A DNA stretch of 21,870 bases, taken from positions 1 to 21,870 of IMG/VR virus record IMGVR_UViG_3300032241_000928; one strand, given 5' to 3'. This DNA comes from a virus. The notes beneath the pieces are model-generated. The model made no database searches, was not told where the DNA came from, and saw nothing but the letters and a program-made list of their open reading frames with translations. Numbering within the stretch: position 1 is the first letter of the stretch; each line of letters starts with the position of its first letter. The position numbers and the translations under genes are program-made. Shown in pieces: positions 2,904-21,822 of this stretch.

Positions 2904-3464
2904 CTAGCGTCCCTTCTCGGAGATGTACTCAAGGTAGAGTGCCGGGTTAGCCTCGGCAACCTTGGTGATCGCAACCGCGTACGAAGGAGCAGTGCCATCG
3001 GCCACAAGGGCGTTGGCAAGGCTTTCCATCTTGGCGAAGGCGGTGTCGGCCACGACAGAAGCGTCGGAACCAACCTCAGTGAAAACAGCGTTGGCCTCTG
3101 CGATAGCGTTCGCAGCGTCCAGAGCCTTGACAACCTCATTCGCGAGAATGGGGTCGGTGGCAGCCAAACGGCGGAGTGCAGGGCCCACAACCGTCGGGTC
3201 GGCGGTCAGGTGCGACCACTCAGCGGCCTTGATAACGGCGGCCTCATCGGCACGAGCGTCACGCTCGGCAAGGAAGGCACGCTCACTTTCAGCAGCCTTC
3301 TGAAGTGCCTCGGCAGCGGCGAACTCTGCTGCGGCAGCAGAAGCCTCGGCCTTTTCCAGCACCTCGCGGATCGCCGCAGGCATAGCCTTGCGAATGTCCG
3401 CCTCAGTGGCCGCCTCGGGGACGATGACAGCCGGAGCAGTCACCTCTTCCGGGGTCAGGTTCAT
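2904..3464 (-). CDS. Possible nested short scaffold isoform (186 aa)
   Basis: An in-frame internal ATG at 3464 (MNLTPEEVTAPAVIVPEA) is preceded at ideal distance by AAGGAGGAAACT, the best Shine-Dalgarno sequence I see in the window. The product would be just the acidic and helical scaffold part, without the conserved N-terminal segment. Nested scaffolds within a larger head-maturation gene are well known (lambda Nu3 in gene C). The codons AAG GAG GAA could simply encode Lys-Glu-Glu, so this is an inference. Confidence 0.45.
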   Translation of the reverse strand: MNLTPEEVTAPAVIVPEAATEADIRKAMPAAIREVLEKAEASAAAAEFAAAEALQKAAESERAFLAERDARADEAAVIKAAEWSHLTADPTVVGPALRRLAATDPILANEVVKALDAANAIAEANAVFTEVGSDASVVADTAFAKMESLANALVADGTAPSYAVAITKVAEANPALYLEYISEKGR

Positions 3465-3719
3465 AGTTTCCTCCTTGGAAACAGGAATGGGGAGTACAGC
3501 GTCGAGCGACTTCTCAGCCTCAACTGCGATTTCAGTAGGGGCCTCAACTTCTGCGACCTCGACTTCATCACCGTCAGTGCGGATTTCGTCAAGCACGTCC
3601 GTAAGGTCGGAAGCGGTGGCGGACTTCATAACTACCCAACCTTCGTGAAGGTGCGCCGGGTGATCAACACCCGAGGTCTCCTTGATACTCAGTTTGACTA
3701 GTTTGCGAGGCCGAGCCAC
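2904..3719 (-). CDS. Capsid scaffold / head maturation protein (271 aa, GTG start)
   Basis: I choose the GTG at 3719 because AGGAGA lies five bases upstream. A longer frame begins at a TTG (3797), but that TTG is the -35 box of a promoter. The N-terminal part contains KLVKLSIKETSGVDHPAHL, a segment common at the start of phage prohead proteases and scaffolds. The acidic middle (EVEVAEVEAPTEIAVEAE) leads into a long Ala/Glu/Arg helical, coiled-coil-like C-terminal half, as expected for scaffolding proteins. It lies directly upstream of the decoration and capsid genes. A very strong ribosome-binding site inside the gene (3465-3476) could start a shorter scaffold at 3464, as in lambda C/Nu3. It would be removed from the prohead during maturation. 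Confidence 0.75.
   Translation of the reverse strand: MARPRKLVKLSIKETSGVDHPAHLHEGWVVMKSATASDLTDVLDEIRTDGDEVEVAEVEAPTEIAVEAEKSLDAVLPIPVSKEETMNLTPEEVTAPAVIVPEAATEADIRKAMPAAIREVLEKAEASAAAAEFAAAEALQKAAESERAFLAERDARADEAAVIKAAEWSHLTADPTVVGPALRRLAATDPILANEVVKALDAANAIAEANAVFTEVGSDASVVADTAFAKMESLANALVADGTAPSYAVAITKVAEANPALYLEYISEKGR
3465..3476 (-). promoter_or_regulatory. Strong internal ribosome-binding site in scaffold gene
   Basis: Gene-strand AAGGAGGAAACT ends next to the ATG at 3464, with GGAGG five bases from the start codon. It is a longer match to the anti-Shine-Dalgarno sequence than the sites at the annotated gene starts nearby. Confidence 0.55.
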
Positions 3720-3738
3720 ATTGTCTCCTAACCACGGG

Positions 3739-3756
3739 TGCGTAGTGAAATACGCA
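3739..3756 (-). other. Hairpin in the 5' leader of the scaffold-capsid transcript
   Basis: TGCGTA and TACGCA form a perfect 6-bp stem around a 6-base loop. The stem-loop carries one copy of the dispersed motif (TAGTGAAATA at 3743-3752). It lies between the candidate promoter (3770-3797) and the GTG start at 3719. There is no U-run, so it is not an intrinsic terminator. Confidence 0.5.
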
Positions 3757-3769
3757 TCTCGATAAGACA

Positions 3770-3797
3770 ATGCTAAGGCAGTTTTTTCATTCGTCAA
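3770..3797 (-). promoter_or_regulatory. Candidate promoter for scaffold-decoration-capsid operon
   Basis: Gene strand: TTGACG (3792-3797), 16-base spacer, TAGCAT (3770-3775). The spacer end plus -10 box reads AAAACTGCCTTAGCAT, almost the same as the element at 19635-19650 before the protease gene. Predicted transcription start is about 3763, which leaves a leader of about 44 bases. Confidence 0.55.
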
Positions 3798-8291: not shown

Positions 8292-8744
8292 TCACCACGA
8301 ATGGCAACCATGTTGGTCAGGCACTCCGTATCCCGCGTTGATGCGCTTGGCAACGGCAACTTGTTGGACGGGGGTTGCGTCTGCGGCGTTGGCAGGAAAT
8401 CCCATTCCCCGACTGAAGTATCGCCAGTTGGAGTTGGTGATGCCGAGACCGCCCGAATAGAGCGAACCGCGCACCTTCCAGTTGCCACCCTCTTCGCACA
8501 TGGCGACACGGCTCCACTCACGGAGATCAGTCGAGGTCACTCCCCACGGCCAGCCAGAGGGCTTGTGGTGAACGACAGGGGCCGTATGCGCCACCGTAGT
8601 CGTGGTCACAGGATTGTGCTTCGGCGTGCCGTGTAGGGGCCCGTGGAAGTGAGGGACTGATGCACCGGCGGGTTGGAACACAATGGAACCAACTGAGAGG
8701 GTGAGAATGGCAGTAGTGGTGATGATGTTGGTACGGAGCCGCAT
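8292..8744 (-). CDS. Secreted Rpf-type lytic transglycosylase (150 aa)
   Basis: Start at ATG 8744 (AAAGGAG five bases upstream), two codons inside a longer GTG frame. The N-terminus RLRTNIITTTAILTLSVGSI is a Sec signal peptide. A His/Pro/Thr-rich linker follows (to about residue 65). The C-terminal 80 residues match the resuscitation-promoting-factor fold: WSRVAMCEEGGNW (catalytic Glu after the Cys), GSLYSGGLGITNSNW, QQVAVAKRINAG and a terminal GC that should pair in a disulfide with the first Cys. The enzyme cleaves peptidoglycan glycan strands outside the membrane. It may aid lysis or host-wall remodelling, or wake dormant hosts. It stands alone with its own promoter and leader. Confidence 0.85.
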   Translation of the reverse strand: MRLRTNIITTTAILTLSVGSIVFQPAGASVPHFHGPLHGTPKHNPVTTTTVAHTAPVVHHKPSGWPWGVTSTDLREWSRVAMCEEGGNWKVRGSLYSGGLGITNSNWRYFSRGMGFPANAADATPVQQVAVAKRINAGYGVPDQHGCHSW

Positions 8745-8763
8745 TGGCACTCCTTTAGGTCAA

Positions 8764-8973: not shown

Positions 8974-9960
8974 TCAGGGGTGCGTGAGTGATCGGGCGAC
9001 GCGCACGACCTCATCTACAACGGCCTTCGCCATCGTCATTTCAGCAGGGCTGTGGTTCTCACCCATAACGTCCGTGAAGTGCGCCTCACGGCTCAACTCG
9101 TCTTGCGCCTTCGCCTTACCTTCTAGTGAAATCGCTTCAGAGCCTTGCACTTGCGCTGCGGCTTGACGGTAGAGGTCTGCCGCCTTGGAGTGGGCGTATC
9201 CTGCTGATTGCCACTTCTCAAGTCTCCGTAGGTTCATCGCTTCTGCCGCCTTGCCATCGGCATCGGCGATCAGGTCGGCGTTCTTGATGACTGCGACTTG
9301 GGACAAGGTGGTGAAGGCGTCGAGGAGCCAATCGAGGTTGCCGAGAAGGTTCTGATGCTTGTCTTCCATGCCAATCTCGGCAAAGACAAGGTAGAGGTCT
9401 TCTAACTTGGGGCGCAAGATCGTCAGGCTCTCTACTGAAATCCCGTTGTTCCACAGAGCCGCCATCGGCTCCGGCATCATCTTTCGTGGTCGGAAGTTGC
9501 AGAGGGCGTGGTCAATCCCCACAATCCTGTCGTGCGAACCGAACAAGAGGTTCTTGGCTCGACGGTCGGCGTTCGCCGTGAGGTGGTCAAATAACCGCAA
9601 AGAGACACCTTGCTGATTGTCAAGGAACCCGTCCTTGTCAAGTTGGTCGCCGTTCTTGCCTTCGATGTAGGGCATGATGACAGTCGTGCTGTTCAGCAAC
9701 CGACAGTCACGGATCGGGGCGTCCATGACTTCTCCGACGCGCGCTGCGAGGTATTCCTGCGCTGCAAGCAACTCAGCAGGATAGAGGCGTCCGGTCTTAT
9801 TGCCGTGCCAGTCTTTGAGGGACTTGACTATTCCACCAGAACCGTCTTGGAACTCAACGAAGACGAAGCCACTGTTCTGATTGCCCTCAAACGCCTCAAT
9901 CGGTTTCGCCGCTGCGATTGAGAAGTCCGTGAACTGCACGAAGTTGGGTCGGAACATCAT
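8974..9960 (-). CDS. HipA/PI3-4-kinase-like protein with helical tail (328 aa)
   Basis: ATG at 9960 (or 9957) directly follows the stop of the upstream gene. Residues about 28-155 form a kinase-like domain homologous to the C-terminal half of the neighbour (9961-11490). Matching pairs are FVEFQDGSGGIVKS, EYLAARVGEVMDAPIRDC, VIMPYIEGK and LFDHLTANADRRAKN...IVGIDH. The catalytic-type residues D132, N137 and D150 have the same spacing (D-x4-N-x12-D) as in the neighbour. The C-terminal half (about 220-328) is helical and similar in style to the TPR-like segments of the GNQ-motif proteins. It may phosphorylate or bind a phosphate ligand. Virion cargo or an effector is inference. Confidence 0.75.
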   Translation of the reverse strand: MMFRPNFVQFTDFSIAAAKPIEAFEGNQNSGFVFVEFQDGSGGIVKSLKDWHGNKTGRLYPAELLAAQEYLAARVGEVMDAPIRDCRLLNSTTVIMPYIEGKNGDQLDKDGFLDNQQGVSLRLFDHLTANADRRAKNLLFGSHDRIVGIDHALCNFRPRKMMPEPMAALWNNGISVESLTILRPKLEDLYLVFAEIGMEDKHQNLLGNLDWLLDAFTTLSQVAVIKNADLIADADGKAAEAMNLRRLEKWQSAGYAHSKAADLYRQAAAQVQGSEAISLEGKAKAQDELSREAHFTDVMGENHSPAEMTMAKAVVDEVVRVARSLTHP

Positions 9961-11490
9961 CTACTTCTTGCTGAAAACGTCATCGGGCCAACCTTGCTGC
10001 ATGGCATAGTTCATGGCTCCCGTGTTCCAACCGTCCATCATCAGATTGAAGTGGTCGGTCATACCGGCTGCTGCGAACTCCGGCTTGAGGGCTTGGAGTT
10101 GGTCGGTCATCGCCGAGATACCTTCCGGCGTGGCCTTGATTAGTGAAAAGTCTGGGTTCTCAGTGGCCTTGTAGTCACTTGTCTCCAACGCTGCACCGTG
10201 GTCAATGCCGACTTCTTTCCCGTCTGCCGAGGTGAACCCGTTTCCGGGGTTGCGGTCGTAGTTATCTACAACCTGATCAAAGAACTTGAGACTGTCAGAC
10301 GCGTCTGCGCCGGTTTCGTCAAAGGTCTTTCCCTCAACCAACGGGCTCATCACTTCGGTTTCACTACCGGGAACATGAACACAGTCACGGATCGGAGAAC
10401 CGAGTGCCTCACCGACACGGGCCGCCAATACTTCTCGATTGGCTAAATCTTTGCCATCACCAAACTCTTCCTGCATGTCCTTGGGTGGTGTGCAGTCTTT
10501 GATAACCGCCTTGGAGCCATCTTCTAGGGTGACAACCCGAATACCGCTATTGACCGCACCGTTTTCAGCACCCTTGAGCGGCCCATCGTCCTTAGCAATC
10601 TTGGTAGAGGTGAGTTTGACGAACTCATTCTTACCCGAGGTCGTAGCGGCATGACCGTCCGTCCACTGGTTGCCGTGGAAATCGTGTCCGGGGACGTCAC
10701 CCTTTTCCACCACGCGCCCAACGATGCTGCGAGCCCATGCGTAGCCTGCATCTCCACCCCACGCGTCCCACGCCACTCGACCATGTGAGGGATAGCCCTC
10801 TTCGTTCTTAGTGAAACCTTGCGCCTTCTTATCAACGGCGTGGCGGTCAAAGTACGCCTTCATGCGCTTGAGGGTGTCAATGGATACGGCGTGACCGTGT
10901 GCAAGGTCTGAAGCCCGTTTGCGACCTACTGGTGTGAACCCATCACCTGCTCGACCCTCTGCAAGCCATTGGAGAGCGCGCTGTGCCGCTGACTGCACTC
11001 CCTTCGGTGGAGTGTAGGTTTCTGCCTTCTCAACCGGCTTGGAGTAGGTTCCACCACGACGCTTGTATTCCTGCACCACCCAGCCGTTTGCGACTGCGGA
11101 GGGATACACATCGAACTTCTTCTTCGCCTCTCGCTTGACACGGTTGTAGAGGTCTTGATCGTCGGGTTCACCTTTGCGGTCAGAGATGACGCCGGTGTAG
11201 TCAGGTTGGTCTGCTTTCGTGACCTCTCCCGGAGCCTTTCCAGCAAGTTCGCCGGTAGCGTCAATGTGTCGGAGTTGGCAGAAGCCTTCTGGATTGTCAA
11301 GATACTTGCCGGCGATGGCGACGCACTGCTGAAAGTCCCCTTCTGAGCCCCAGTCAATCTGCCCACCTGCACCGTTGTTGTACCAGTCAATCAGTCCTTC
11401 GGCGTTGCCCGCCTTGTGGATTTCCACCTCTTGCAACTGACTGAGGCTGCACTCACCCTTGAGGATCAGTTGAATAGAATAGAAATCCAT
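9961..11490 (-). CDS. Modular phage protein: GNQ module plus C-terminal kinase-like domain (509 aa)
   Basis: Modules in order: an N-terminal domain (about 30-90, WYNNGAGGQIDWGSEGDF, later GFCQLRHIDATGE) common in actinophage head-region proteins; a DUF5872-like segment (about 97-150, LYNRVKREAKKKFDVYPSAV); a further phage-associated domain (about 165-255, RHAVDKKAQGFTKNEEGY, later WDAWGGDAGYAWA); the KGDVPGHDFHGNQWTDG motif (263-279); and a HipA/PI-kinase-like domain (about 314-435) with K327/K331, D412, N417 and D430. It is probably delivered with or assembled into the virion, with the kinase-like part acting on a host target, but that is inference. ATG at 11490 has only a weak ribosome-binding site. 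The downstream neighbour repeats the kinase-like domain. Confidence 0.75.
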   Translation of the reverse strand: MDFYSIQLILKGECSLSQLQEVEIHKAGNAEGLIDWYNNGAGGQIDWGSEGDFQQCVAIAGKYLDNPEGFCQLRHIDATGELAGKAPGEVTKADQPDYTGVISDRKGEPDDQDLYNRVKREAKKKFDVYPSAVANGWVVQEYKRRGGTYSKPVEKAETYTPPKGVQSAAQRALQWLAEGRAGDGFTPVGRKRASDLAHGHAVSIDTLKRMKAYFDRHAVDKKAQGFTKNEEGYPSHGRVAWDAWGGDAGYAWARSIVGRVVEKGDVPGHDFHGNQWTDGHAATTSGKNEFVKLTSTKIAKDDGPLKGAENGAVNSGIRVVTLEDGSKAVIKDCTPPKDMQEEFGDGKDLANREVLAARVGEALGSPIRDCVHVPGSETEVMSPLVEGKTFDETGADASDSLKFFDQVVDNYDRNPGNGFTSADGKEVGIDHGAALETSDYKATENPDFSLIKATPEGISAMTDQLQALKPEFAAAGMTDHFNLMMDGWNTGAMNYAMQQGWPDDVFSKK

Positions 11491-14311: not shown

Positions 14312-14749
14312 TTAGTCGTTGAGGGAGGCGGTCAGTTGCCAATCCCATTTGTCGTGCATCTCGATGCGCCCTGCAAGGAAGTTGGCGATGCCGTTCTTGC
14401 CCGTCTGGTTAGCGATCTGGAAGGCCTTGTTCAGACTTTCCAGCACACCAGCGTTGGTCACAATAAGGTCGGACACAAGCGTCTTGTGGTCGTATGAGGT
14501 AATCGGGCCATCACTCACCGATGCGACACTGTTCAGGTCGGACAGCCGGAATGGTGCGACTGCACCAATCTTGCGGAGGCTTTCACCAAGTCCGTCAAGG
14601 CTCTCCCACACGTCGTTGTAGATTTCCTCAAACTTTGCGTGATACTGAGGGAAGTCAGTACCGACAATGTTCCAGTGAAATCCGTGAACGCGATGGTACA
14701 TGACCGTAGCATCAGCGAGACAAGTCGCCAATGCCACAGTCAAGGCCAT
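14312..14749 (-). CDS. dps: Dps/ferritin-like DNA-protection protein (145 aa; 153 aa from the upstream ATG)
   Basis: I prefer the ATG at 14749, preceded by AAGGACGGCTCA; the ATG at 14773 lies six bases downstream of a stop and has no ribosome-binding site. Counting from 14773, the ferroxidase ligands are in place: H33 (HGFHWNIVG), H45 and E49 (YHAKFEEIYND), D60 and E64 (DGLGESLRKIG). These match the Dps pattern (H, H, D/E, D, E) at the correct spacing. Dps dodecamers oxidise Fe(II) with peroxide and bind or shield DNA. In a phage structural region it might protect phage or host DNA during infection or be packaged. There is no obvious DNA-binding N-terminal tail. Confidence 0.85.
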   Translation of the reverse strand: MALTVALATCLADATVMYHRVHGFHWNIVGTDFPQYHAKFEEIYNDVWESLDGLGESLRKIGAVAPFRLSDLNSVASVSDGPITSYDHKTLVSDLIVTNAGVLESLNKAFQIANQTGKNGIANFLAGRIEMHDKWDWQLTASLND

Positions 14750-14776
14750 TGAGCCGTCCTTAGCGATCAGCATGGA

Positions 14777-17547: not shown

Positions 17548-17774
17548 CAGTTCCCCTTAGCGAGTTGCGACTTCATGTAGTCATCAACGGTCTGACCGCC
17601 ATCTGCGAGGGTCTGTGCGATGCCCTTGATGCCATCTTCGGTGCGAGAGGTTGCCCAACCCTCAACTCCGAGTTGCTGAAGTGTCCACAGTCCACCGATG
17701 AGTGCGACCCGCCACTTGCGGTCAGAGGAAACCTCACCTCCGACTGGATGCGAGTTCCAGACGATCTCGGCCAT
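17547..17774 (-). CDS. Small phage protein, function unknown (75 aa)
   Basis: ATG at 17774 overlaps the protease stop by one base (TGATG), and the gene ends with the same kind of junction, so it is translationally coupled on both sides. Segments SDRKWRVALIGGLWTLQQLG and DGIKGIAQTLADGGQTVDDY suggest a beta turn then helices. No family recognised. Its position right after the protease suggests a head-assembly accessory. Confidence 0.65.
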   Translation of the reverse strand: MAEIVWNSHPVGGEVSSDRKWRVALIGGLWTLQQLGVEGWATSRTEDGIKGIAQTLADGGQTVDDYMKSQLAKGN

Positions 17775-19609
17775 CAGTTCTCTTCTCCGTAGTTGGTGAT
17801 AAAGGTGTCAGGTGTGGCTTCGTCGGTAGGGAGATCAACCTCAATCCCTGCGCCGGTTCCACCAATGCTGTAGCCCCTAATCTTGCCCTTCTTGACAAGT
17901 TCCCAAGCCCACGGTTCCCACTTGACGCCGAGGAAAGCAGTTCCGGCAGGGAAGGCGGTCTTCACGATTTCACCAGTATCGGCCTTGAGCATCGGAACTT
18001 CGATAGGGTGCGGCCAAGTCAAGAGTTCGACCCACTTGCCAGCGACAATCTCAACGTTGTGTTGGAGGCGAATGTCTCGATCACCATTCTCGACGTAGCC
18101 CCAGAGTGCCTTTTGGAGTTCTTCAGTATCCGTCCACTCGTTATGAGCGTCCATGCGGTTCGGAACATACCAAGGGCCGAGGGTGTAGCGGTTCTCAATG
18201 CTCTTCTGAACCGTTCCGGGGATTTCACTAGTCTTCGCCGCAACCAAGACTTCTGGCTCTTCTTGCTCAATGATCTCCATGTCCACCGGCTTCTCGTCCT
18301 CTTCCTTCCCCCAATCGGGGCTGTCCACATGGACGGAAGACACGAAGGGGCCGGACTTCTCGATTTCATCGGGAGTTGCTGAACGGCGGCTCTTGTAGTA
18401 GTTCTCGGCAGAGGCGGCTAACTCAACGCGCACCGGAACCATGTTGAACTTGCACCAGCCGTTCGGAGCGCAGGTGACTGCGACCCAATCGCATGATCCA
18501 CTGTCGGAACAAGCGATGCAGTTGGCGCAGGTTCCACCTGAGGTCTGGAAGGGGCTGTATGAGGTGTAGGCGGCATCAGTCGTAGGCATACGGCCCAAGT
18601 CATCAACCATTTCGTCAAGTGCCTTAGCGAGTTCTACTTGCCAAGGGTCAAGACCTTGCTTCCAATCATCGCCATACACGCTGCTGTCGCTTGAGGAAGA
18701 CGATGAAGAGGACGAACTGCTGCTTGAATCGTCTTCACTCGACGATGAGGAACTGCTACTCGACGAGGAACTCGACGATGAGGAAGAACTACTAGAGGAA
18801 CTGTCATCATCACTGCTACTTGAGGAACTGTCACTGCTGGAACTTGACGATGAACTGCTGCTCGACGAACTTGACGAAGACGAACTACTGCTACTTGAGG
18901 ACGAACTGTCATCATCGCTAGACGAGGAACTGCTGGAACTGCTTGACGATGAAGACGTGCTGGACGAAGATGAGGAACTCGCATCTTCAGTGTCTTCGCT
19001 TGAGGTGGAACTTGAGGGGCTACTTGACGAAGAGGAACTTGAGGAACTGTCCTCACCCTTTGCGTCTTCCACCGCTTGCAGGATCGCTGCGATGGTTGAG
19101 GGGTCAAGTTGGATTTGGCGCGCACCATCAGTGGTCGTATCATCAGGGGCGTTATAGCCGCCATTGAACGTAAACGGGAACCCGTAGGCCTTGTCGAGTG
19201 GCTGGCAAGTCTCTTGCTCAGTGGTGGAACCGCAGATAAGACAAGCGTTGGAACCACCGAGGTCGTTCTGGCTCTTCGTGAATGGGTGGGGAACTGAGGC
19301 AAGACCCTTTGCGATGTTGCGGGCGATCAGTCGCTTTTCAGCGTTCTGCGAGAGATGACCGTTGCCGAACACGCTCTTCGTCATGCGGTCCCAGATGGGG
19401 TTGTCATCACGGGTGTCGTTTGGTACGATCACCAGAGAGGCATCACTCCCCTCACCGTGCGAAACGGCGAGTAGGTCGGCAGTGACATACCCTTCCTTGA
19501 GAAGCGTGGCTGCACTCTCACGGATTTCCGCAGGGAGACTTTCCTTCGCAACGATTTCACTAAGAGAAGCGTCCGTAAGTGCGTCCAAGACGTTCATAAG
19601 TTCGGCCAT
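17774..19609 (-). CDS. XkdF-like prohead protease with long poly-serine insertion (611 aa)
   Basis: ATG at 19609 with AAGGAG. Residues 1-185 form an N-terminal domain with CLICGSTTEQETC (a possible zinc site). Residues about 188-309 are almost entirely Ser with Asp/Glu interruptions, written with all six Ser codons. A cysteine cluster follows (CANCIACSDSGSC, later CAPNGWC). The last ~190 residues match the XkdF-like phage serine protease domain (YTLGPWYVPNRMDAHNEWTD, then LQHNVEIVAGKWVELL, then FPAGTAFLGVKWEPWAWELV, then GKIRGYSIGGTG). Usual XkdF proteins are shorter and lack the Ser tract. It would process scaffold and capsid during prohead maturation. The portal upstream fits the usual order. 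Confidence 0.75.
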   Translation of the reverse strand: MAELMNVLDALTDASLSEIVAKESLPAEIRESAATLLKEGYVTADLLAVSHGEGSDASLVIVPNDTRDDNPIWDRMTKSVFGNGHLSQNAEKRLIARNIAKGLASVPHPFTKSQNDLGGSNACLICGSTTEQETCQPLDKAYGFPFTFNGGYNAPDDTTTDGARQIQLDPSTIAAILQAVEDAKGEDSSSSSSSSSSPSSSTSSEDTEDASSSSSSSTSSSSSSSSSSSSSDDDSSSSSSSSSSSSSSSSSSSSSSSSSDSSSSSSDDDSSSSSSSSSSSSSSSSSSSSSSEDDSSSSSSSSSSSSSDSSVYGDDWKQGLDPWQVELAKALDEMVDDLGRMPTTDAAYTSYSPFQTSGGTCANCIACSDSGSCDWVAVTCAPNGWCKFNMVPVRVELAASAENYYKSRRSATPDEIEKSGPFVSSVHVDSPDWGKEEDEKPVDMEIIEQEEPEVLVAAKTSEIPGTVQKSIENRYTLGPWYVPNRMDAHNEWTDTEELQKALWGYVENGDRDIRLQHNVEIVAGKWVELLTWPHPIEVPMLKADTGEIVKTAFPAGTAFLGVKWEPWAWELVKKGKIRGYSIGGTGAGIEVDLPTDEATPDTFITNYGEEN

Positions 19610-19665: not shown

Positions 19666-19779
19666 TCAGCGTGGTCGCGGCTGTGCGACAGGGACGCCGA
19701 GGGTCTTATTCCTCAAGATAGGGCGTGACTTTTTAGCAACACCGACAGGGTGGGGAACCTTCCGAATACGAACGGTCAC
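19666..19779 (-). CDS. Small basic ORF coupled to the portal gene (37 aa)
   Basis: A GTG overlaps the portal stop by four bases (GTGA) and opens a 37-codon frame ending at 19666. The product is strongly basic and proline-rich (TVRIRKVPHPVGVAKKSRP, later PVAQPRPR). It fills most of the otherwise empty 166-base gap between portal and protease. The coupling supports translation; there is no homology that I can recognise. A chance ORF is possible. Confidence 0.4.
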   Translation of the reverse strand: MTVRIRKVPHPVGVAKKSRPILRNKTLGVPVAQPRPR

Positions 19780-21413
19780 GATGTTGGCCCTTGATCATTG
19801 ACGAGTGGCCCGTTCATTCCGGTTGGCTTTGGCTTTCCACCTTTACCTTGCGGAGGAACTTGTCCGGTCTGTCCGGGATAGCCCGCACTCGTGATGTTCG
19901 CTTGTATTCCACTACCACCCGACTGATCGTTCAGGCCGCCTTGTGGGTTCTTCACACCCGTAGGCTTCGTGTTTCCTTGCGGACTAGCGACTGCGCCAGC
20001 GTGAGGTGAACTCGTCCCGACGAAACTCGGATTACCTTGCGTCATCACTTGTTCTGGTGCGACATACCCGTAGCGTTGGTTGTCAGCAGCACCTTGAGGC
20101 TCTGCTTGGAACGGTGGGAGACCCGCCAACTCACGAAGGTAGTCCTCAAGGTTGTTATCTGGTGTAATAAGTTGTGCAGAGGCAAGGTTCGCAATAAATC
20201 CGCCGAGTTCTAACAGGTCAATGGCATTGACTTGACCGTAGGTGAGGGTCGGGCAACGTGCTGTATCAAACCCGTTGAGTGCCATGAGGCGTGGAATAGC
20301 GTGGCTGTTGAAGACTTCGGCAATAAGCCTGATCCAACTTTCCACCGCAGCCATGAACAAGTCCACCTTGCTTGACCCGAGTGCGAACGAACCGACGCTC
20401 TCGTGTCCGAGCATGATAAAGTCAGCCAGACAAGTCATCGCAATCTGCTGGTTGTAGCGAGTGATGATCTGGTCGGTGTTGAACTGTCGCGCTCCACCAG
20501 AGTTCAGCAACTTGAAGTCCACTAGTTGCTTGCCGTTCTCATCAAACATCATCGGGAGAATGACGCCTTCGGTCTCGTTGCGCTTTACTCCACGAACAAT
20601 GGCTTCCATCGCTCGGAGTGCGCCTTTTTCAGCAGGAGTGGCATCTCTACCCATCCAGTCGGCGGGAACGTAGCCAACGGGAAGACCTGCGAGGTCGCGC
20701 TCAACACCGATTGCCTCAAACTCTTCGATACGCCGCTTGTAATACCAAGCCTTGAACGACGAGCGAAGGATTGACCGACCTTCGGGGTTTCCACGCGCAG
20801 AGGTGGTACGGAATAAGAGGCCCTTCTCAATGGGAATGACGTTCAAGCGACCCGTCGTGGGGTCACGCTGGATCATGGCTTTTATTCCACCACTCTCGTC
20901 AAACTGCCACTGCCACAGGCTGTCCTGCGAGCGCATGGCAATCTTGCGCCAGCCAATCTTGTTATCACTAAACTTTGACCGCATCGAGGGGTCTTTCTGA
21001 TCCGGCCCCTTACGCTGCTTATAGACAATCTCAAAGAACGACCAACCGTAGGTCAGGAACGACACGATGGCAATCATCAACTCGTGCCACGACGTGCTCA
21101 TGTCGTCCATGCACTCTTGCACGAAGATTGCAGCCTTATCGTCATCGTCAAGTGGTGTTTCACCTGTCGGGTCGGTGTACGGATCAACCCGCCAGTCCAC
21201 TTGGAGAATGACGCGCTCAATGGCGAAGAGGATCGCACCGATAATCGGGTCGTTCTCTGCCATGTCCCGATAGGCAGTAAGAGACTGTCGGCCTCGGAGT
21301 TGAGGTAGAACATCGTCAATGACGAAGCCACCCGTGCGCCACAGACCTGTAGCACCGAGTTCGCTAAAGTTATCTACTTGAGGGAGTACGTCCTCTGGAT
21401 TACTTTCGGGCAT
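19776..21413 (-). CDS. Portal protein, Mu gp29/DUF935-like (545 aa)
   Basis: Start at ATG 21413 (GGAG five bases upstream); a TTG further upstream in the frame is less likely. The portal ring forms the DNA entry channel at a capsid vertex. Support comes from LTAYRDMAENDPIIGAILFA, the ERVILQVDWRVDP segment, a C-terminal wing region (AIVSFLTYGWSFFEIVYKQR) and the central GVKRNETEGVILPMMFDENG. Length and motifs fit the DUF935 portal family. The last ~90 residues are Gly/Pro/Gln-rich and disordered. The gene overlaps the WhiB gene by 14 bases and precedes the protease, as in typical head modules. Confidence 0.85.
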   Translation of the reverse strand: MPESNPEDVLPQVDNFSELGATGLWRTGGFVIDDVLPQLRGRQSLTAYRDMAENDPIIGAILFAIERVILQVDWRVDPYTDPTGETPLDDDDKAAIFVQECMDDMSTSWHELMIAIVSFLTYGWSFFEIVYKQRKGPDQKDPSMRSKFSDNKIGWRKIAMRSQDSLWQWQFDESGGIKAMIQRDPTTGRLNVIPIEKGLLFRTTSARGNPEGRSILRSSFKAWYYKRRIEEFEAIGVERDLAGLPVGYVPADWMGRDATPAEKGALRAMEAIVRGVKRNETEGVILPMMFDENGKQLVDFKLLNSGGARQFNTDQIITRYNQQIAMTCLADFIMLGHESVGSFALGSSKVDLFMAAVESWIRLIAEVFNSHAIPRLMALNGFDTARCPTLTYGQVNAIDLLELGGFIANLASAQLITPDNNLEDYLRELAGLPPFQAEPQGAADNQRYGYVAPEQVMTQGNPSFVGTSSPHAGAVASPQGNTKPTGVKNPQGGLNDQSGGSGIQANITSAGYPGQTGQVPPQGKGGKPKPTGMNGPLVNDQGPTS

Positions 21414-21822
21414 CTCTACTCCGTGCGTCAATGGCTTGGCTAGCCTCTATAAGACTACTACCCGATTTCACTAGGGTAATAATGCGCCGCCTTTGACTGA
21501 GTGAGTGTCCACCCCAGATGCCGAACTCTTCCTGCAACCCTGCTTCTAGGCACTCATAGCGTACAGGGCATTGTAAGCACAGTTTCCTAGCCGGAACGAG
21601 GTGCTTGCCACCCGGCGTTTCAGCACGGTCAGGATACATCGTGTTCAGGTGCTTGGCTTCTGGCACGTCACGGCATAGGGCTTGTTTCGTCCATGCCGGC
21701 GGGATCATCGCCATCAGCAAGTCTCGACCGATCTTGATGAGGTCTATGTCCTCATAACGGGCTCTGAGTTGCCGTTCGTAATCGTCTTCGGGTGCTTCGG
21801 CCTCACTCGTCATCTTCGCCAC
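21400..21822 (-). CDS. WhiB-family Fe-S transcription factor (140 aa)
   Basis: The WhiB signature is complete: C50, then C82-x2-C85-x5-C91 (KLCLQCPVRYEC) to hold a 4Fe-4S cluster, followed by GIWGG (101-105) and a basic RRR tail that contacts sigma factor and DNA. The family is restricted to actinobacteria and their phages, so it sets the host range. Start is GTG 21822, or ATG 21813 with a GGTGG ahead of it. Phage WhiB proteins, such as WhiB of TM4, can repress host whiB genes and affect superinfection. Here the gene overlaps the portal gene, so it is expressed with the late head operon. Confidence 0.9.
   Translation of the reverse strand: MAKMTSEAEAPEDDYERQLRARYEDIDLIKIGRDLLMAMIPPAWTKQALCRDVPEAKHLNTMYPDRAETPGGKHLVPARKLCLQCPVRYECLEAGLQEEFGIWGGHSLSQRRRIITLVKSGSSLIEASQAIDARSRDARK

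Follow-up and report, generated by a model that had tools for sequence, protein, structure and literature searches.

A long serine/acidic tract, probably a disordered spacer, precedes a HiPIP-like domain in an XkdF-type phage head protease

Why does a predicted phage head protease carry a tract of 120 residues, 101 of them serine? The gene (17774-19609, minus strand) lies in an IMG/VR fragment of 21,870 bases, referred to here as the window; absences from fragmentary contigs of this kind are soft. It encodes a multidomain XkdF-type head protease of 611 residues, identified from its open reading frame, a Pfam match and the portal gene adjoining it. The Peptidase_S78_2/XkdF domain (PF14550; E 1.4e-11, 44.9 bits against a curated cut-off of 24) occupies residues 471-589 (17843-18199, minus), confirming that the tract sits in an XkdF-like protease, as an earlier note on this DNA had proposed. 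For comparison, we picked 24 representatives from 37 anchored carriers of the tract; L028, in which the anchor pattern failed, was left out. The XkdF domain, which scored above the cut-off in the window protein, was matched in 24/24 representatives. It contains an invariant His in LQH and an invariant Ser in G[YF]S[IM]GG, and in the window domain we take H517 and S581 to be the predicted catalytic residues.

Portal and capsid genes are both present in the window, which places the protease gene in a head module. It lies downstream of, and adjoins, the gene for a Mu-type portal protein (19776-21431, minus; PF06074 E 5.7e-33, phrog_113). Beyond it come a Dps/ferritin-like gene (14312-14773), kinase-like genes and the major capsid protein gene (1418-2425, minus; phrog_1005 E 6e-95, PF03864). 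The gene upstream of the capsid gene (2904-3797, minus; phrog_13547, function not assigned) is possibly a scaffold gene, judging from its place and Ala/Glu-rich make-up, and the Dps/ferritin-like gene, being within the head module, possibly encodes a packaged DNA-protecting protein. From its family and place the XkdF domain is predicted to be a prohead protease; Pfam itself labels the Peptidase_S78_2 family putative. The PHROG labels 'RNA ligase' and 'DNA methyltransferase' for this protein were rejected, as those models match its XkdF end only. A search with a defence-system library gave weak matches only. The contigs used here are described only as environmental. The host is probably actinobacterial, because the window contains a WhiB gene (Pfam) and a transglycosylase-like gene (8292-8750, PF06737), which we take to be of the type found in Rpf proteins, and because XkdF relatives of the window protein occur in Arthrobacter phages. 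No relative of the domain that follows the tract was confirmed in bacterial genome contigs, and there is therefore no prophage or host link from that search.

The protein opens with an N-terminal domain (residues 1-66; 19412-19609, minus) predicted to fold as strand-helix-helix-strand-strand. Its model is confident over residues 11-60 (pLDDT 86-96) and found no fold match at E<=0.001 in the PDB or BFVD; the N-terminal part likewise had no match in phage records. Next, recognised in the alignments, is a first cysteine cluster, HPF...CxxCGS...C (residues 108-135, with CxxC...C at 123-135; 19205-19288, minus), possibly a metal site. The tract itself spans residues 188-307 (18689-19048, minus), in good agreement with the earlier estimate of about 18683-19048, and has 14 Asp/Glu and no Lys or Arg besides its serines. 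A helix and a four-cysteine domain follow (residues 311-394), then a variable acidic linker and the XkdF domain. The Ser-dominated stretch thus lies between separate domains, with the N-terminal module on one side and the four-cysteine, HiPIP-like domain on the other. The earlier description of the tract as lying between two cysteine clusters holds for the window protein but is not universal, because the first cluster is absent in 3/24 representatives (L017, L040 and L046).

The second cysteine cluster forms a domain at residues 345-394 (18428-18577, minus) with YTxxSP and GWC motifs. Its cysteines, C361, C364, C373 and C386, were invariant in 24/24 representatives, in the order CxxC-C-C with G[WY]C. 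Searched against the PDB up to E 10, the domain's own profile found only 1hpi (E 0.041), 3h31 (E 0.072) and PioC (E 0.34); 1hpi and 3h31 are both named HiPIP, and PioC is presumably one as well. The homologous domain of tractless relatives matched the HiPIP 3h31 with E 3.7e-5, and its 38 further matches had E values of 0.13 or more. An NCBIfam iron oxidase model, which we assume to be of HiPIP type, gave E 0.011, far below its cut-off. There was no Pfam HiPIP match in the 24 representatives, and a rival Pfam family, PSI (plexin repeat), matched 8/24 members weakly (best E 0.019). Foldseek with a poor model of the C-terminal flank (pLDDT 54) found nothing at E<=0.001. Two yeast QCR6 entries that came ahead of two HiPIPs with a longer C-terminal profile (E 0.3-0.65) were rejected, the match being on the acidic linker. 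The domain shares with HiPIPs the CxxC...C...G[WY]C and YT..SP pattern, but its second and third Cys stand closer together in sequence, it is fused inside a phage protease, and it belongs to a family whose own profile match is non-significant. Taken together, the second cluster looks like a HiPIP-like domain with a putative Fe-S cluster.

A HiPIP-like domain also ends the capsid maturation protease of Actinomycetia phage DSL-LC01 (OQ999401; 29.5% identity, E 3e-4), and a gene nearby is annotated as a high potential iron-sulfur protein. The best PDB matches of that domain, 3h31, PioC and 1isu, were weak (E 0.16-0.82) and were followed by RAD51. Unlike the window protein, the DSL-LC01 protease has a weak Peptidase_S78 match instead of XkdF, and no Ser tract. 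The phage is metagenome-assembled, according to the available part of its source (PMC10611076). It is conceivable, if rather improbable, that the head protease is an iron-sulphur protein in which assembly or redox change of a [4Fe-4S] cluster would gate the protease or mark completion of the prohead, the tract serving as a leash that gives reach. A search of open-licence papers found none that links HiPIP with a phage prohead.

We then asked how the tract is distributed among relatives. Scanning viral contigs for the XkdF domain gave 367 confirmed relatives, and the 80 best of these were carried forward. Of these best 80 of 367 loci, 50 had a Ser-rich tract, their longest Ser run being at least 5, and 30 had none, with runs of 3 at most. 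The tract was also absent in the actinophage isolates Waltz, ValentiniPuff, Kovu and Ottawa, in line with the earlier statement that usual XkdF proteins lack it. Three loci (L046, L047 and L049) had a mixed Ser/Asp/Glu linker with Ser runs of only 5-6. A separate scan with the post-tract domain found 57 loci, 57/57 having a linker of at least 20 Ser (35 distinct linkers, 39-126 residues); this count favours close relatives of carriers because the scan profile was built from tract carriers, and the 57 do not include five tractless relatives (L057, L058, L061, L067 and L071) whose domain is homologous. A sequencing or assembly artefact, raised in the earlier note, was rejected, because many separate contigs have linkers of this kind, and some contigs share an identical one.

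When 58 distinct XkdF domains were placed in a tree, one branch (support 93/95; present in 90% of 200 bootstrap trees) separated the 30 tract rows from all others, and no loss of the tract was seen among the sampled carriers. With this tree rooted at the midpoint only, the simplest reading is that the tract was gained once, in the ancestor of the lineage. In the five tractless relatives both the N-domain (hhalign E 1.9e-8) and the four-Cys domain (E 3.1e-16) have homologues, with no Ser tract between them. Some differ further: L058 and L067 have a TUDOR-type domain ahead of XkdF, and L067 and L071 have no CxxCG cluster. In Arthrobacter phage Waltz and Microbacterium phage ValentiniPuff, XkdF is instead joined to a 2'-5' RNA ligase-like domain. 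This fusion was seen in Waltz gp18 (L006, 7326-8444) and its relatives, related records naming the protein RNA ligase or aldolase, and the 'ligase' of Laroyevirus likewise combines XkdF with a 2'-5' RNA ligase-like domain.

Other variations were observed around the tract. Cys-rich inserts occur inside it in L038, L039, L113 and L121 (for example CSCC...CDCDCSCC in L038). A second open reading frame downstream of the protease has its own shorter poly-Ser/Asp run in L036 (8734-9846), L037 (8736-9851), L032 (8920-10035) and L024 (6982-8892). A DUF5872-like segment (YTPPKGVQ...WGGD) is present in a cargo-like protein of the window (9961-11490) and in the tractless XkdF proteins L058 and L067, where it was recognised by eye and Pfam made no call; this common segment suggests domain exchange between protease and cargo.

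Is the serine run held by selection on the protein, as the earlier note had argued? We defined core tracts as running from the first to the last SSS, ends that favour Ser. The 24 core tracts comprised 1491 residues: 1268 Ser (85%), 133 Asp/Glu, 72 residues one mutation from Ser and 18 others, with a single Lys and no Arg; whole linkers of the 24 representatives had 0-2 Lys+Arg each. One-step missense changes from the tract codons would yield Arg (19%), Thr (16%) and Cys (10%), and Asp/Glu in 0% of cases. Arg is thus the commonest one-step product and yet was never observed, whereas Asp/Glu form the largest non-Ser class, which argues that the composition is selected; as the rows are related, this comparison carries no formal test. 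The composition also persists in the 35 distinct linkers. Compared across relatives for length and codon make-up, as the earlier note had suggested, the tract was variable in length (linkers of 41-132 residues in the 24 representatives, CV 0.30) and kept its Ser/acidic composition. Exact length and order read as nearly free, and Ser with some Asp/Glu and a near-absence of basic residues reads as selected.

All six Ser codons are used, as had been claimed: a 100-residue stretch of the window tract has AGT 22, TCG 17, AGC 15, TCC 13, TCA 13 and TCT 8. Codon order follows a further rule. In 24 tracts pooled, the 133 Ser-Ser steps after AGC led to AGT 113 times, to AGC 20 times and to TCN never, because AGCT is absent from the DNA. 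The excess of AGT in the tracts (25%, against 12% elsewhere in the same genes) also follows from this absence. In the window, AGCT, AATT, ATAT and TTAA were observed 0 times against 55, 31, 21 and 15 expected. Across 51 tract loci, some overlapping or near-identical, AGCT was absent from 50 and occurred 7 times in L056; most tractless environmental loci also lack it, and the four Arthrobacter/Microbacterium isolates show no avoidance. Three whole contigs (109-121 kb) had no AGCT (471, 376 and 405 expected), no CATG (404, 201 and 474 expected) and 0, 0 and 2 GATC (447, 210 and 453 expected). One of these contigs also lacks CGCG and one lacks TTAA, and L064, L065, L070 and L085 have no AGCT, TCGA, GATC or GGCC. 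Absences of 4-base palindromes were seen across the window (1-21870), L002-L086 and L153-L171. Restriction avoidance is a general cause of missing short palindromes, and the missing palindromes here are probably extreme restriction-site avoidance.

How, then, does the tract change length? Tandem Repeats Finder reported no array at the tract. Adjacent identical codons were rarer than in shuffles (24 tracts, pooled z -4.6), and the earlier view that the run does not arise by simple repeat slippage stands for single codons. It does not extend to longer blocks. Repeated 12-mers exceeded simple codon shuffles in 14/24 tracts, including that of the window, and with a codon-pair control the excess remained for 12-, 15- and 18-mers in 9, 8 and 8 of the 24, the window tract showing none. 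Four close pairs had in-frame gaps of 3; 15; 12 and 4; and 1, 5 and 5 codons. In the alignable codons of five pairs there were 33 synonymous and 10 non-synonymous differences, the alignment within pure Ser runs being ambiguous, and all 6 TCN/AGY switches fell in one ambiguous pair (L034/L036). Equal-length close pairs had 1 synonymous difference (plus one N) and 3 non-synonymous differences in the tract, too few to judge selection. As judged from these comparisons of sequences, tract length changes through in-frame duplication or deletion of several codons, not through single-codon slippage.

On balance we favour the reading, anticipated in the earlier note as a flexible tether, that the tract is probably a long, hydrophilic, acidic and disordered spacer joining the N-terminal module to the HiPIP-like and XkdF protease module. 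Its disorder is suggested by composition, the structure models covering the flanks only. Such a spacer would have been gained once in the ancestor of an environmental phage lineage whose host is probably actinobacterial. It would separate the N-terminal module, that is, the N-domain and usually the CxxC cluster, from the HiPIP-like and protease module, so that a protease docked in the prohead via another part of the protein could reach sites spread over scaffold, capsid or cargo. Being acidic and nearly free of basic residues, it would avoid sticking to DNA or protein and provide both reach and solubility. Its length would drift by in-frame duplication and deletion of codon blocks, with codon choice constrained in addition by the lack of AGCT. 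In L023, L031 and L033 the next linker contains extra inserted domains with a GHxFxGNQ tag, a hint that long linkers are tolerated by the protein and perhaps put to use. Against the spacer reading, 85% Ser in the core tracts is stricter than plain flexibility requires, and the mixed linkers of L046, L047 and L049 also count against it.

Modification of the serines offers other explanations. Phage kinase-like proteins might modify the Ser/Asp tract, switching its charge or timing the protease in head assembly, and acidic residues among serines would suit an acid-directed kinase. The earlier note had counted two kinase-like proteins nearby; weak matches exist, but all are below cut-off (PI3_PI4_kinase E 0.009; TIGR03843 E 3.9e-5, for the gene at 8974-9960 on the minus strand, and 0.0015), and the 8974-9960 product has no PDB kinase match. 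Its relatives were present in 14/15 tract records, whereas none of 19 tractless records matched its first 210 residues and 4 matched its C-terminal part (about 212-309) weakly. This co-occurrence is confounded, because the tract and the gene mark the same lineage and common descent explains it equally well, and more simply. Most of the relatives, moreover, are part of long open frames of 529-2070 residues (one is cut at 200), which appear cargo-like. We therefore consider a phosphorylation platform unlikely, although the kinase-like gene is indeed common to the lineage. O-glycosylation of the linker is very improbable: Ser-rich linkers elsewhere can be glycosylated, but this is presumably an intracellular assembly protein, and Pfam found no glycosyltransferase among the 30 open reading frames of the window, itself a fragment, leaving the glycosylation site proposed in the earlier note without a candidate enzyme there.

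The acidity of the tract raises the further idea of a DNA mimic or repulsive filler that holds the protease and its fragments away from packaged DNA or aids their expulsion. A net charge of -18 in the window linker and the scarcity of basic residues in the cores agree with this, but the acidic share of the cores is about 9%, and those of L002, L005, L025 and L034 have no Asp/Glu, and we hold this role to be doubtful. That the tract is a DNA-level repeat expansion tolerated as junk would fit the repeats that exceed the codon-pair control. Junk, however, would hardly keep its position and composition in 35 distinct linkers without a loss among the sampled carriers, nor would the residues in it run counter to what one-step mutation yields, and this explanation has little to commend it.

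A tag, GHx[FW]xGN[QRH], often after KGD or KGGPGSG, was observed in four open reading frames of the window on the minus strand (10689, 12077, 12818, 15241 and 16168). It also occurs in L012, L031, L091 and L092, and in 24, 21 and 1 copies in the three whole contigs; among tract contigs of 9 kb or more, several of which are near-copies, 22/24 have it, against 0/17 tractless ones. The tag may mark head cargo proteins for the protease or for packaging. Polyvalent phage proteins offer a parallel for the cargo-like kinase genes (PMC5512222); the terms XkdF and GNQ are absent from the available text of that paper.

Polyserine linkers as such are already known, and were reportedly studied by Howard et al. 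in 2004. In the accessible part of one source, they separate the domains of bacterial carbohydrases, and long Ser linkers join carbohydrase modules in Saccharophagus and Cellvibrio, at 25-58 residues among the linkers listed (PMC2386152). The linkers of the window family are likewise long and placed between domains, but they belong to a phage head protease, reach 132 residues and are interspersed with Asp/Glu. Serine-rich linkers are thought to be more flexible than proline-rich ones, as stated in the portion available of PMC10598543. A search of open-licence papers for polyserine and phage capsid matched a review on frameshifting. With XkdF head proteases of the PF14550 family the window protein shares its C-terminal domain and the position of its gene beside the portal gene; in contrast to tractless XkdF proteins, it has an N-domain, a CxxC cluster, the tract and a HiPIP-like domain ahead of XkdF. 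It is the placement of a polyserine linker in a phage head protease that is new, as judged from the open-licence papers searched.

These results suggest that phage head proteases can include a HiPIP-like domain, and they reveal a lineage whose contigs of more than 100 kb lack several 4-base palindromes. This DNA-level rule can be read in the codons of the tract, where codon choice carries more than protein-level selection. The tract also provides a clear natural case of a low-complexity run that is apparently under selection at the protein level, with its composition kept and its length free.
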